From Fragilaria crotonensis (Eukaryota; Bacillariophyta; Fragilariophyceae; Fragilariales; Fragilariaceae): a DNA stretch of 21,136 bases. The notes beneath the pieces were generated by a model. That model was not told the origin of the DNA and searched no databases. It saw nothing but the letters and a program-made list of their open reading frames with translations. The stretch is taken from NCBI GenBank assembly GCA_022925895.1, contig JAKSYS010000826.1, forward strand, positions 1 through 21,136, in the 5' to 3' direction. Position numbers and translations under genes: made by a program. Positions 2-15,025 of this stretch are shown here, one piece after another (the first letter of the stretch is position 1; each line of letters opens with the position of its first letter).

Positions 2-131
2 AAAGTTGTTGTGGCATTAACGTTGTTGATTTTCGGTGCCGTTCAAGGCCTGCCGTTTGTGGTGAATGCTCCTTCCACGACGACATGTGGACAACACAAT
101 ACGTTGACATCCATCATGAATTTACGGAGGT
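2..131 (+). other. Presequence-like open frame upstream of the ubiquitin domain (5' end outside window)
   Basis: Reading from base 2, the frame is open from the window edge until a stop near 176. It encodes a hydrophobic core, KVVVALTLLIFGAVQG, then LPFVVNAPSTTT and a segment ending NLRR. That is the shape of a bipartite complex-plastid presequence: a signal peptide followed by a Ser/Thr-rich, basic, acid-free stretch. No Met occurs before base 116, so the start codon would lie outside the window. The residue after the likely cleavage site (VQG/L) is Leu, not Phe. In diatoms, lack of an aromatic residue there is associated with retention in the periplastidal compartment rather than import into the stroma. 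The frame meets the ubiquitin Met at 132 one base out of register: dropping a single base, such as T131, would fuse them. Coding status is therefore uncertain; chance is possible. Confidence 0.5.
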
Positions 132-846
132 ATGCAACTCTTTGTCAAGACATTGACGGGAAAGACAGTATCCGTTGAAGTCGAAGAAGGAGAGTCGATT
201 GAAGATGTCAAGGCCAAGATTGCGGAGAAGGAAGGTATTCCTCCAGAACAACAGCGTCTCATTTTTGGAGGTCAACAACTTCAAGATGGAAAAACTTTGG
301 ATGATTACAACGTTGGAGATGACGCGACTCTGCATCTTGTTCTTCGACTGGTGAGTTGTTATTTGTTTCTTTTTCCGATTGCCTTGTGTTGAGTCCGTTA
401 TTAACCCAGCTGAACGTATCAACTAGCGTGGAGGGACTCCCCTATCTCGCATTCGGGATATGGCACTCGGTCGTGGGATGTTCCAAGTCGACGAAAACTT
501 TGTCAAATCCAACTTGGAGGGCTTGACAGATGACGACCGTGCCTTGATGGACGCGTTTGTGGGTCAGAGTTTGCACAAGGGCGAATCCGGTGACGAAGAG
601 GAATCCGCTGTCCCCGTGAAGAAGGCACTGTATCGTATTTCCGATTGCCCCCCAGCCCCAGGTGACCACAGCCCTCTCAGGGACGGCGTTTTTAGACACA
701 AGGTCGCCCAGAGGGGTGAGTTTAGTTTGGATGGTCAGATGATCGTCACGGAGGGCAAACGACCTACCAAGCTGACGAAAGTCTTCAAGAGGCGAGACAA
801 TGAAGGGAAGCTATTTAATGCATTGCACAGAATGAAGTTGGATTAG
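132..846 (+). CDS. Ubiquitin-like domain fused to a 136-residue tail of unknown function
   Basis: Two exons, 132-350 and 427-846, with a 76-nt intron (GTGAGT...CTAG) that splits the domain in phase 0 after LRL; exon 2 resumes with RGG. The product is 212 aa from the ATG at 132. Residues 1-76 are clearly ubiquitin-like: [25 protein letters not shown] and LHLVLRLRGG are present, as are the Leu8-Ile44-Val70 patch, His68, Arg72 and the Gly75-Gly76 cleavage site. Lys6, 11, 27, 29 and 33 are kept, but position 48 is Gln and position 63 is Asp, so K48 and K63 chains could not form on it. The 136-residue tail is neither ribosomal L40 nor S27a, and I do not recognise it. Ubiquitin precursors are normally cut after Gly76, so the tail may be released. 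Arg72 argues against NEDD8. A symbiont-derived (PUBL/SELMA-type) ubiquitin is a plausible identity given the upstream presequence-like frame. The first ATG after an in-frame TGA (117-119) is 132. Confidence 0.85.
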
Positions 847-10067: not shown

Positions 10068-13000
10068 TCATCCCTCGCCTAAATCGTCCTGTTCGTCAAA
10101 GTCGTTTTCAATTTCTTCGCCCTCCGCATCAAAGGGGAGGGGATCCTTAACTGGGAATCGATTCATCTGGCGAACAGCATCACGGCAGGCATTCCGTACC
10201 TGCAATGAAATCCCGACGGAGGTCGTCATCAGGCCCTCACCATCCATGTCCGTCGCTCGAATGGGTTTGAAGGGAAGATTTCCTAATTGGCGGAGCGCAT
10301 CTAAAACGCGACCAAGCATCCGAGCAAGGTCGCCCGGAGCCGCTCCTGAGAGTTCTAAAGCCTCCGCCCACGAACATCCGCTAGCCCAAGCGGTAACAAC
10401 CTGAACATTCGTCAAATCAAGTTCACATGCGTTGCTGTTGCTTGTCTGGAACTCCTTTTGAACCTCGACTAGCCGTTCACATACGGCAATGCATGATTGC
10501 ACAACTTGCTGTTGTGCGGGAGTCAGTTTCTGAAAGGACTCGGTAACACTGACTCCGTTTCCTCGACGGTAGCCATCGGATATTAGGCTGGAGACATACC
10601 CAGCCAATTCGTGAGACGTCAGCTCACTTAGTTGGCGTGCAAGTGTCGAAGATTCTTGTTGAGCTCGACCGACAGTGGACTTCTTATCGTCTCCAGGTGC
10701 GACCCTGGGCGTTTCGAACATGTCGAACATCAGATCGATGGCATCTCCATTATCGCCTCCGCGTGAGATTTCATCATCAAAGTCCATCATTCTTCGACGG
10801 AATTCGTCCAGATTCGAGGACACACCGATAACATCGTGGGCCCCACCCATGGCGACTAAGAACCAGAGTGAATTCTGTACGGAAAGCATACCAATGTGTT
10901 CACCGGCTGTAGTCAGTAGAAAGGAGGACGACTCAAGGTCATCGTCAGGCATACCCGGAGCCCAACTTGATTTCAGACATCCGTAACAGACTAGCACTTT
11001 TGTTAAGGCCAGCATGTCGAGCCACAACGCGTCTCTCTCCGTCGAAACATGCTTGTGCGCTGGATCGACGAAGATATTGGAATCCACCGCTTCGACAGCC
11101 TTTTTCTTTCTTTTCATCGTGACGACCGACTTGGCGAATACTGTAAGGTCGGCAGCAGTGAGCGAGCCATGGCCAGAACTTCTGGCGTTTCCCAGTTCCA
11201 CCGCAAGAGCTGCACCATGCGGGCTTTCTCTCTCCATCATTTGATTCACAACAGCTGCCATTCCAGTAAAGGGGTGCTGGGCGACATTGTTTTGGGCCGC
11301 AAGCACTCGTTCACGTTGCATCTCAATCAAGCGAAGCATCTCCACTTGGTTCTTCTCAAGATAGTCACGAAGCACCCCCCGATCCTCAGCAGAGCCTATT
11401 GCTATCGAAGAGGCAAGATCTTCTTCTAGGTACTGGAGAGACTTCTTCTCCATCGTCAGCTTATTGGCCAGACCGCTGAACCCCTTGGAAACGTCCTTGA
11501 GACGTTTCTTGTCTTGCAAAATGTTGGCGAAGTCTGCTAAACGTTGTTCCTCCAACGGGTTGGTGGCGTCCACGTTAAGGAATGCATCGGTCATCATTTT
11601 CACGAATCTCTCTTGAGACGCAGCGTCACCCAGCTCAAAAGCCGAGCTGTCACTAGCCAATACAGCCTTCAATTGCCTCTTCTCCCACATAGCGAACGAT
11701 TTTTCAACCAACCTACGTGCGACGTCCATCTTGCCCTGCCCTCGAGAAATCAAGTTCACGGCCAGTGAATACGACGGAGCAAATTGAGACGCCACTGGCT
11801 TGATCTGACTGATTAAAATCTTCGACGCGTCATCTTCGTTTTCAAATGGAGTGGAAAGAATGACACATGTCCCGTCGGTATCCATTCCACGTCGACCAGC
11901 TCGACCTGCCATTTGCAGTATATTGGAAGTTTCGAGAAGGTTCATCGCGCTTCCGTCCCCGCGCTTTGCCAGAGAGCAGATACAAGTTGTTCTCGCTGGC
12001 ATGTTGATGCCGGCCGCCAGAGTTTCAGTTGCAAATACAACCTTCATTAGTTGAGCACGGTACAATGTCTCAACGAACGACTTGTGAGCCGGTAGCATGC
12101 CTGCATGATGAGAGCCAACGCCTAATAGGAACTGCTGGACTTGGCGCTTATCGAAGATAATTTCCTCGTTCTCAGAGTTGAAGGCCGAGACTCGAAATGC
12201 CACTTGTTTCACTTCGTCGTAATTGAGCAGTCCAGCACTAGCGAAAAACCTCCAATTTTCAGGATTTAACGGGGAATCATCGTCAAACTTCATATTGTTG
12301 TAATCGGAAAAGGCGAAGTCCAAAATTGATGCAAGTGAATCATCATCCACAGAGCCGCCACCTACTCGGAACACCCGCCCTTCCTTGTCTTGCATGCGAT
12401 TTCGAGCTTTGATGTCACGTGATCGGCCACGCTGGCCTTTCGTCCTTTCTCGAGATGCTTCATTGTACGGATCGTCGTCGTTATCTGTGAATGGATCACG
12501 TGTTAAGCCCATGAAATGTAGAGCAAGCTCTGAAGCCGCCATGTCGCATCCTGCGCGAGAAAAAATGAAGAGAATGGCAGGCAGTAGTTGCTTCTGATCA
12601 AGTCGCCGTATCAGCATGCTCAAGGACGGTACCTCCTTCCTCATTTCTATCCTCAATAATCTATCCCGTTCTCGTCGTTCTTCCCTGCTCGCCCGTAGTC
12701 TTGATCCAGGTGATTCCGATTTCCATTTCCTTTCCCCGCGAAAGTCCATATAATTTTGATCACGTGCATCAGTCTCGCCTCCTTTCATTCTCTCGATGGC
12801 CTTATTGACTCTTGTTTGACGCTTCAATGAAAGAGCCTTAAGGGCTGGATTAATCTGTAAGCCTTCTGGAATCGCATCTAAATCCGAAATGGCATCCACA
12901 ATATCCTCCAAGGCACCTCTCTTTGACTTGGGTTTCAAGTCTGGGCCTGGAATACCGTCACCGCGGAGCCCCAAGAGACCCTTCGGCGCCCCAGGTCCAG

Positions 13001-13904
13001 CGTCGGGATCTTGAAAAAGTGGATAAAGTCCTGACTTTGTGGCGAATAGATAACGCAGAGGCACAGGTCTGGCTCCTGTCGCTTCAATTAGCACAGTTTC
13101 GCGGCCCGACACACTCTCCATCCACTGCGCCAGCTGACGGGCATTCGGCAATGTCGCTGATAGCCCAACAATCTGCGAGTGGCTTGGTGTTGTAATGACA
13201 GATTCCTCCCATACACCACCTCGGCCTTGCTGTCCCATGTAATGAAATTCATCCAAAACTACGACTCCATTTCTTGCGAGTTCATCGTCCTCCAAGTTCA
13301 CCGTACTTCCATCTTTACCCTCAAGACCGCTTGATCTCCACGCCATGTTCCGATAGACTTCCGTCGTCATCACTCGCAATTGCGCATCTCGATTGATCGA
13401 CATGTCGCCGGTTGACAATCCCACTTTGGAGTTTCCGAAGATGAGTCTCAATTCTGCAAACTTTTGGTTGGAAAGTGCCTTGAGGGGTGTCGTATAAATT
13501 GCTTTTTGACCCTTTTCGATGGCAAGATGGAGTGCCATTTCTCCAATCACAGTCTTTCCAGCTCCTGTTGGTGCACACACAATGACATTGGAGCCTTGAC
13601 AAATCTCTCCGCCAGCTTGCAGTTGCCAATCATCCAGTGGAAAGGAAAAGTACGGTTGCAGAAGTTCTCGACCCAATTGTATCGCGTTGGATGCCTCCTG
13701 CACCGTATTGGTGCCATCATCATCAGCTGTAGCGTCAGCAGACGATGATGATTTCAAGAAACAGTGAGCTCTTGATGTGTCTTGTTCATGATTTACATGT
13801 ATTGTTGCGTAAGGAAGAAAGGCAGATGAAGTAGATCTAGTCCAACCTATAAGTAAGAGAAAGCACTGCAACGAGTACATGCGTGACATGCGAGACAGGC
13901 ACAT
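10068..13904 (-). CDS. Plastid-targeted Ski2/ISE2-type DExH RNA helicase
   Basis: An intron-free frame of 1278 aa. The N-terminus MYSLQCFLLLIGWTRSTSSAF is a signal peptide ending at SSA/F (ASAF type), followed by a Ser-rich transit stretch, so plastid stroma is likely. Superfamily 2 motifs are complete: Walker A APTGAGKT (about 111-118), TPLKALSNQK (139-148), DEFH (218-221), SATLPN (249-254), GVGSHHAGMLP (595-605), TETLAAGINMPART (626-639) and QMAGRAGRRG (664-673). The C-terminal 200 residues match a DSHCT domain, with a TAWASGCSWAEALELS stretch and a GDLARMLGRVLDALRQL helix. This order defines the Ski2/Mtr4 class. The plant plastid member ISE2 acts in chloroplast RNA processing and translation, and a similar role is inferred here. 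Charged insertions (about 300-420 and 470-560) lie between the RecA-like domains. The C-terminus is acidic. Confidence 0.95.
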   Translation of the reverse strand: MCLSRMSRMYSLQCFLLLIGWTRSTSSAFLPYATIHVNHEQDTSRAHCFLKSSSSADATADDDGTNTVQEASNAIQLGRELLQPYFSFPLDDWQLQAGGEICQGSNVIVCAPTGAGKTVIGEMALHLAIEKGQKAIYTTPLKALSNQKFAELRLIFGNSKVGLSTGDMSINRDAQLRVMTTEVYRNMAWRSSGLEGKDGSTVNLEDDELARNGVVVLDEFHYMGQQGRGGVWEESVITTPSHSQIVGLSATLPNARQLAQWMESVSGRETVLIEATGARPVPLRYLFATKSGLYPLFQDPDAGPGAPKGLLGLRGDGIPGPDLKPKSKRGALEDIVDAISDLDAIPEGLQINPALKALSLKRQTRVNKAIERMKGGETDARDQNYMDFRGERKWKSESPGSRLRASREERRERDRLLRIEMRKEVPSLSMLIRRLDQKQLLPAILFIFSRAGCDMAASELALHFMGLTRDPFTDNDDDPYNEASRERTKGQRGRSRDIKARNRMQDKEGRVFRVGGGSVDDDSLASILDFAFSDYNNMKFDDDSPLNPENWRFFASAGLLNYDEVKQVAFRVSAFNSENEEIIFDKRQVQQFLLGVGSHHAGMLPAHKSFVETLYRAQLMKVVFATETLAAGINMPARTTCICSLAKRGDGSAMNLLETSNILQMAGRAGRRGMDTDGTCVILSTPFENEDDASKILISQIKPVASQFAPSYSLAVNLISRGQGKMDVARRLVEKSFAMWEKRQLKAVLASDSSAFELGDAASQERFVKMMTDAFLNVDATNPLEEQRLADFANILQDKKRLKDVSKGFSGLANKLTMEKKSLQYLEEDLASSIAIGSAEDRGVLRDYLEKNQVEMLRLIEMQRERVLAAQNNVAQHPFTGMAAVVNQMMERESPHGAALAVELGNARSSGHGSLTAADLTVFAKSVVTMKRKKKAVEAVDSNIFVDPAHKHVSTERDALWLDMLALTKVLVCYGCLKSSWAPGMPDDDLESSSFLLTTAGEHIGMLSVQNSLWFLVAMGGAHDVIGVSSNLDEFRRRMMDFDDEISRGGDNGDAIDLMFDMFETPRVAPGDDKKSTVGRAQQESSTLARQLSELTSHELAGYVSSLISDGYRRGNGVSVTESFQKLTPAQQQVVQSCIAVCERLVEVQKEFQTSNSNACELDLTNVQVVTAWASGCSWAEALELSGAAPGDLARMLGRVLDALRQLGNLPFKPIRATDMDGEGLMTTSVGISLQVRNACRDAVRQMNRFPVKDPLPFDAEGEEIENDFDEQDDLGEG

Positions 13905-15025
13905 CAACCATTATACTCGGAATATTTCTTGATGGCATAAAGCAGAGAAAGTGATGTGCCATTTACTCATTTCTCATTGGTTCTGCAAGTGATGGCACTA
14001 TTCATACGTCATGCGTCATACAATACAAGTATATATGAAAGAAGTATATGTTTACGGTACTGAACCGGTCGATGAACGGACCCAACCTCTTGTGACCGGT
14101 CATTCGAGACGAAACGAAAATCGACACGACTATTGGTGCCACGTGGCGCGCGAACGAGCGAGCCGTCAGAATCCAAAAACTACTACTTCTTCATCTGCAT
14201 TGGTTGTTAAGAAATAAAGAGTTTTGTTAAGAAATGAGAAGTTCTCCGAGTAAAAGCGGAAGGACTACCACTAGACCAAGAATGGCTGACCGGGTTTTGC
14301 TGCAGCCAATTCTGGCAGCACAGTTGTGAAAGGTGAAAGTGAAGTGCAAGCAGCGGCGTCAGCATAGCTATCCCCAATTTCATGGATTGCGTATTTTAAT
14401 CGAAGCAGAAACCCACTGAGGCGGCGTAGGGTTAGGCAACGAGACGCATGGAATCATATGCTTGGGTTGGAGACCTTGATGCATTCTGGGCACGCACAAG
14501 GATCATATTCCTGTTGCAGTAAGCTCTACATGATGTGGGTTGCCCATGGGCTGGTGCTTGACATAAAATTGGAACATCGCGTGACGTTCAGGTTGATTCT
14601 ATTTCTAACTGTGAAGTGGTGGCACAGTCTACGGCAGTATCCGCACTCCAGGAGGCGCAACCGCTGAAAGTTATAAATTGGCTTCGAATACACGTTAGGT
14701 TGTTACGCGTAAGGTTTTAAGAGTTTTAAAAAATGGCATTCACTCGTATTTGGGCGTAGAGGGGCCGGGCGTTTCACAACGAACAAATAAGTCGCGAGTA
14801 AAGGGCAATACAGTACGATAGGGTGCTGTCGTCCAATCCCGGACGGTGGTGACTAAAGTTTGTCGAGTGATCAGTGCAATCATTCTCCGCGGCACCGCGT
14901 TGAATTAGGTTTGTTGTTTTTGTTTGTTTGTCTATATACATACCATTCATATTGGGCACTCAACTAGCCCTACATTACAGGAGGTAATACGATTTGACAC
15001 CATGATCCTACGACCCTTGACCATG
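13905..15025. other. Intergenic region upstream of the helicase gene
   Basis: About 1.1 kb between the helicase start and the ATPase stop codon. It should contain the helicase promoter. No open frame here has a recognisable domain, and I saw no tRNA box B or other RNA gene signature. A short duplicated motif, TTGTTAAGAAAT, occurs at about 14203 and 14225. Confidence 0.5.

Follow-up and report, generated by a model that had tools for sequence, protein, structure and literature searches.

The closest described systems are the SELMA plastid ubiquitins of diatoms, together with the ubiquitin-like protein PUBL of T. gondii. For diatoms, passages of one report describe loss of the K48 site in the plastid ubiquitins and propose that this loss uncouples import from degradation (PMC5487736). 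The legend of Fig. 2 in that report gives identifiers for P. tricornutum (54323), F. cylindrus (270635), and T. pseudonana (1536), which we took as the plastid member of each pair because they are listed first. Loss of K63 in the periplastid ubiquitins of chromists appears in a passage of a second report (PMC5756292, citing Stork et al. 2012), and the set of parts found in SELMA-bearing algae is outlined in passages of PMC7617431 and PMC5756292. In T. gondii, according to the passages of PMC5487736 devoted to it, PUBL is critical for survival and carries an RGG directly before its ubiquitin domain; mutation of this RGG had no functional effect and no processing was seen. The same passages report four of the five lysines of the domain to be dispensable, the fifth being one that could not be tested.

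The window examined here, i.e., the whole stretch of DNA that was analyzed, is an entire contig (C809; 21,136 b) of a genome searched over 62.1 Mb in 881 contigs. Its left tip carries a split gene for a diverged ubiquitin with a long C-terminal tail, preceded by a presequence-like open frame that is one base out of register (Table 1). The reading that we favor, with moderate confidence, is that this gene encodes the SELMA periplastidal ubiquitin of a diatom-like alga, that its start is cut off by the contig end, and that the offset is an indel error located within 117-131. As a SELMA periplastidal ubiquitin, the protein would probably be of a known kind, present in one more alga.

Table 1. Features at the left end of the window (C809)
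Feature	Position	Strand	Basis
Presequence-like open frame (frame 2); one genomic place	2..130	+	frame reading, shuffle tests
Stretch that must contain a simple offset	about 117..131	+	TGA 117-119 closes ubiquitin frame
GGA GGT, two Gly codons of the ubiquitin frame adjoining its Met	126..131	+	sequence reading
Ubiquitin exon, residues 1-73 (K48Q, K63D, R54K)	132..350	+	PF00240, alignment
Predicted phase-0 intron, donor G/GTGAGT, acceptor CTAG/C	351..426	+	frame-consistent join
R74-G75-G76, start of exon 2	427..435	+	translation
136-residue C-terminal tail after Gly76, stop 844-846	436..846	+	translation, searches

The ubiquitin domain of the window gene is recognized by PF00240 at 1.3e-28 and is identical at 54 of 76 residues to that of Ub-L40, one of two fusion genes in this genome (Ub-L40 and Ub-S27a) whose extensions we take to be the ribosomal proteins L40 and S27a. 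Lysines 6, 11, 27, 29, and 33 are present, a new lysine stands at position 54, and K48 and K63 are replaced by Q and D; the losses printed for diatoms (K48) and for chromists (K63) are thus both seen in this protein. The intron, which is predicted from sequence, is the join that keeps ubiquitin intact, and across it the conjugation end R72-L73-R74-G75-G76 is preserved. The 136-aa tail returned no Pfam match up to an E value of 1; a ubiquitin-ribosomal protein fusion was rejected on this ground, the tail being neither L40 nor S27a. Within the genome the tail occurs a single time, and no second intact copy of the gene was found. Viral and prokaryote collections, searched with the protein and with its tail, gave 12, 17, and 103 pattern-matching stretches, none of which was confirmed as a relative. 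The literature passages that describe PUBL contain no tail after Gly76, and among the papers listed in a search for plastid ubiquitins of diatoms with an extended C terminus nothing looked relevant. We regard the tail as mildly new.

PF00240 was found at 21 places in the genome, and the 20 outside the window gene were each read at least in part. They include Ub-L40 (C18) and Ub-S27a (C66), both canonical ubiquitins with K48 and K63 present, as well as three proteins on C12, a ubiquitin-like fragment on C179, a protein on C518, and more distant ubiquitin-like (UBL) proteins. Only the C518 protein (L006, 279-923) combines RLRGG with loss of both lysines. It has 40 of 76 residues identical, lacks K48 and K63, and ends its domain in RLRGG, beyond which lies a Cys-rich region with CxxC pairs; no hydrophobic leader was seen in its frame. 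The loss of K48 and K63 is therefore not exclusive to the window gene, and the C518 protein is an alternative candidate. A signal-peptide start was seen at only one of the 20 places, in a distant UBL protein on C172. The three related genes on C12 (L002, L005, and L022) each encode a ubiquitin-like domain at the N terminus and, after it, a long region that is alike in all three, and they show RG-M or RR-M where RGG is expected; the two that were scored are identical at 63 and 50 of 76 residues, keep K48, and have no GG.

Several other families that would be needed for a periplastidal ubiquitin system have leader-bearing members in the genome. UBA_E1_SCCH was found at two places, one of them (C405) within an ORF whose start, MMLHLLLLLTWLCLSINA, is signal-peptide-like. 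CDC48_N was likewise found at two places; the one on C402 scores 30.7 bits against a curated cutoff of 35.1 and lies just downstream of an ORF with a signal-peptide-like start, to which it is putatively joined. Leaders are also carried by derlins on C306 and C719 and by an E2 on C549. In the remaining Uba1, Cdc48, and derlin ORFs, no leader was seen within the ORF, and UFD1_N1 was found at one place. Taken on family membership plus leader, from which the SELMA identity of each paralog is putatively assigned, the leader-bearing Uba1, Cdc48, E2, and two derlins resemble the set described for SELMA-bearing algae. An E2-like protein with a leader is present in two copies, on C278 and C372 (L073 and L074); the match on C372 contains a stop. 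Within the window itself, three minus-strand ORFs begin in the manner of signal peptides and place an aromatic residue where cleavage is likely (SSAFLP, SSWAFTT, and TDAFHS), a feature of algae with red complex plastids. The 1,279-aa DEAD and DSHCT helicase at 10068-13907 on the minus strand has a signal-peptide-like start of plastid type.

The sequence-only reading had described a signal peptide and an acid-free stretch ending in NLRR, one base off the ubiquitin Met, and frame reading bears this description out. Starting at base 2, frame 2 meets no stop before the TGA at 176-178, and 43 of its residues lie ahead of the point where the ubiquitin ATG (132) sits. The peptide, free of D and E throughout, opens with a signal-peptide-like segment, KVVVALTLLIFGAVQG..., and continues up to NLRR. 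This frame begins at the very tip of C809, so that the 5' end of the gene is missing from the assembly. Base 1 is a G; an ATG ending there, possible although unseen, would give M-K-VVVALTLLIFG, and otherwise the Met of the leader lies off the contig. Retrieval of the upstream sequence, which had been put forward as a way to find the start codon, was unsuccessful: no other contig of the genome holds the missing 5' end or an allele of it. Bases 1-22 have no second occurrence in the genome at ≤1 mismatch, bases 1-900 match elsewhere only within 141-289, and the frame-2 peptide matches only itself.

The chance of meeting such a frame was gauged with tests that are post hoc, their hydrophobicity threshold being the observed value. 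Among 20,000 dinucleotide shuffles of bases 1-131, some frame (any of three) was open over 43 codons in 8,504, and an open frame with an equally hydrophobic start arose in 11; when bases 1-60 and 61-131 were shuffled apart, the same combination arose in 61 of 20,000. Hand-picked intergenic DNA of the window, taken on both strands, gave 11,236 overlapping stretches; an open frame was present in 1,724 of these, and none reached the same hydrophobicity. When the entire window was scanned, 39 of its 42,010 overlapping stretches were both open and as hydrophobic, and these fall into five clusters, the leader frame among them. A hydrophobic open frame at this position is unlikely to have arisen by chance. 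Codon scoring by itself is indecisive as to the coding status of 2-130. The leader frame has an intermediate score of -0.72, compared with a mean of 7.1 for 213 coding segments (5% at or below -0.72) and a mean of -7.5 for open non-coding stretches (12% at or above the value of the leader frame). The N-terminal regions of five leader-bearing genes (window 10068 and 8747; L047, L049, and L041), which also belonged to the training set of the score, range from -10.4 to 3.3.

These results bear on the best-surviving alternative, namely, that translation starts at ATG 132, that bases 1-131 are 5' UTR or promoter, and that the product is a cytosolic or nuclear ubiquitin-tail fusion, the hydrophobic frame being coincidental. 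We consider this unlikely. ATG 132 is the sole ubiquitin start that the unspliced assembled sequence permits, and it has a G at -3; coincidence, which the intermediate codon score would allow, is nevertheless hard to reconcile with a frame that appears in just 11 of the 20,000 shuffles (61 in pieces). Other ubiquitin-fusion genes of this genome are also without an evident leader, including the one on C518 that lacks K48 and K63. Against this stands the loss of both lysines in the window gene, and a purely cytosolic or nuclear product would leave the leader-bearing SELMA-type enzymes without an evident periplastidal ubiquitin.

If, as we favor, the leader and the ubiquitin belong to one precursor, the position of the offset is narrowly confined. 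ATG 132 sits in the frame next to the leader frame, and the ubiquitin frame is last closed upstream by the TGA at 117-119, after which it reads I-Y-G-G-M. Because of this stop, a simple offset must fall within about 117-131. As for an in-frame bipartite leader, a leader-like sequence is there but in the neighboring frame, and it starts beyond the contig. The sequence-only reading had offered four explanations for the offset (sequencing error, real frameshift, unusual intron, and dual expression), of which sequence error fits best; we infer that the offset is most likely a small indel error of the assembly within this stretch, near the contig tip.

Six pairs of duplicate contigs of this assembly were compared for indels and mismatches. 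Gaps of 1-2 b outnumber mismatches in two of them, by 7 to 2 over 1,794 b (L027/L026) and by 2 to 0 over 1,452 b (L029/L030). In the four other pairs mismatches exceed gaps (26/7 in L027/L028, 21/14 in L045/L048, 22/16 in L007/L008, and 38/9 in L026/L028), and for this reason the duplicates may instead be real divergent copies. L026, L027, and L028 are near-identical to one another, as are L029 and L030; L027 retains a 443-aa frame that in L026 and L028 breaks off some 100 aa in. The comparison suggests that indel errors are common enough to account for one event near a contig tip. The 1,279- and 1,051-aa ORFs of C809 are intact; errors are therefore not dense on this contig. The offset between leader and ubiquitin should be given no reading as a targeting switch before the reads are checked.

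An intron could also produce an apparent offset in a correct assembly. The sequence-only reading had pointed to donors at 36 and 87 with an acceptor at 129, and these do restore the frame (introns of 94 and 43 b), as does a GC donor at 48 (82 b). Frame-restoring introns on the contig end only at AG 129, with these three donors, or at AG 149. An intron ending at 149 was rejected, as it would delete the N terminus and start of ubiquitin, and one ending at 47 fails as well, since it would leave the TGA at 63-65 in the ubiquitin frame. That a spliced leader, with an intron ending at 129 and a donor at 36, 48, 87, or off the contig, joins the presequence in frame is in our view quite unlikely, even though the gene carries another intron. 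The candidate donors GTGCCG, GCCTGC, and GTGGAC are unlike the donors seen in the genome: the best joins judged by eye, among those listed (12 of 25 and 12 of 13 in two cases), use GTAAGA, GTAGGT, and GTGAGT, and the donor of Ub-S27a is GTAAGT (by eye; the script gave no join there). AG 129 is compatible with the frame, but its context, GGAG, is a poor one for a splice acceptor, and an intron from 36 would moreover delete the transit-like part of the leader.

That the offset is real, reflecting either an allele with a frameshift or a leader in decay, with a cytosolic form alone remaining, or else two products made from alternative starts, is highly unlikely. The assembly does contain duplicate copies with broken frames, and ATG 132 is usable; yet the tail is single in the genome, with no sign of a second, intact copy. 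Were the tag lost, import should suffer, judging from T. gondii, and a form confined to the cytosol would leave no evident periplastidal ubiquitin. Least credible is a reading of frame 2 as the last part of an upstream gene, whose product would have a membrane helix close to its C terminus, since the frame does begin off the contig and run on to TGA 176-178 but its leader-like composition stops where ubiquitin starts, and the implied same-strand coding overlap of about 45 bases would be unusual in a nuclear genome.

We return to the favored reading, a SELMA periplastidal ubiquitin. The compartment cues that the sequence-only reading had drawn from the leader proved weak. It had taken a residue other than Phe after the cleavage site as fitting the periplastidal compartment; cleavage after VNA would place Pro at +1 and cleavage after VQG would place Leu there, and ASAFind, as described in a passage of PMC12136025, accepts Leu at +1 as plastid-type. 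It had also pointed out the acid-free stretch, and passages of the same source show that periplastidal leaders do carry acidic residues (PMC12136025). Because the leader cues do not discriminate, the periplastidal case rests on the ubiquitin and the genome and not on the leader. What stands of the proposed SELMA/PUBL identity is the loss of K48 and K63, the retained RLRGG, and the presence of leader-bearing SELMA-type paralogs; the identity itself falls short of proof, with a more diverged ubiquitin-like protein on C518 that shares the loss of both lysines.

For the compartment, processing, and function of the protein, we infer a series of steps from the parts present. The precursor would consist of a signal peptide, a transit-like peptide, ubiquitin, and the 136-aa tail. 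The leader would take it via the ER and then across the second-outermost membrane of the plastid, delivering it to the periplastidal compartment, where a protease of the deubiquitinase type would uncover Gly76. The leader-bearing Uba1 and E2, with a ligase, would then attach the ubiquitin to incoming preproteins, and the leader-bearing Cdc48 would draw the tagged preproteins through a derlin pore. Loss of K48 and K63 would stop the tag from serving as a degradation signal. A probable periplastidal ubiquitin that has neither lysine bears on how plastid import became uncoupled from degradation.

A further pattern emerged in the leaders of the paralogs. Seven leader-bearing members were noticed in the searched ERAD/ubiquitin families, and in five of them an RGG stands late in the leader, at residue 30, 51, 52, 56, or 56. 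The carriers are Uba1 (C405; L041), Der1 (C719; L049), Cdc48 (C402; L042), Der1 (C306; L047), and E2 (C549; L060); the two leaders without RGG are those of the E2-like protein on C278 (copy on C372) and of the UBL protein on C172. The threshold of the leader scan missed two of the five RGG cases, and further leader-bearing members may be missed. As a background, the regions beyond residue 100 of 50 long ORFs contain 4 RGG in 16,311 aa, or about 0.02 per 80 aa. Of the 50 long ORFs, 7 have an RGG among their first 80 residues, namely four of these SELMA-type proteins and three others, one of which (L015) has Phe after its likely cleavage site.

At the window gene, the frame-2 Arg at 125-127 (of the motif NLR) abuts the Gly-Gly codons of the ubiquitin frame immediately ahead of Met 132. 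With a start codon ending at base 1, this Arg would be residue 43, within the 30-56 range of the paralogs. This meeting point of Arg and Gly-Gly, which is a post hoc observation, speaks for a single precursor that includes both frames and for a local offset. Among the matches listed in a search of open-licence PMC articles for RGG in diatom leaders, only PMC5487736 has an RGG, in the PUBL of T. gondii, and we consider the pattern mildly new. As a long shot, the late RGG of periplastidal presequences might be a processing signal copied from the ubiquitin C terminus, the deubiquitinase of the compartment acting as its transit-peptide peptidase and freeing ubiquitin from both leader and tail. If so, the same enzyme would cut the ubiquitin precursor on both sides. 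The RGG pattern and the 136-aa tail are both cheap to test across diatom genomes.

Set beside the known systems, the window gene has counterparts at three removes. Ub-L40 and Ub-S27a likewise consist of one ubiquitin that is extended at the C terminus beyond RGG, but their extensions are ribosomal and their ubiquitin is canonical, with K48 and K63. PUBL of T. gondii (TgMe49_223125) has, like the window gene, a ubiquitin-like domain behind a leader and Gly-Gly directly before that domain, as RGG in the one and as Gly-Gly codons in the other; it differs in that, according to passages of PMC5487736, its domain is C-terminal with no tail and the equivalent of K48 is kept. Closest, by description, are the SELMA ubiquitins of diatoms, which are similarly diverged, have kept the conjugation end and lost K48, and have a leader-like stretch upstream and SELMA-type paralogs in the genome. 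By the same descriptions, the window gene departs from them in two respects: its leader is one base off in this assembly, and its ubiquitin carries a 136-aa tail after Gly76.
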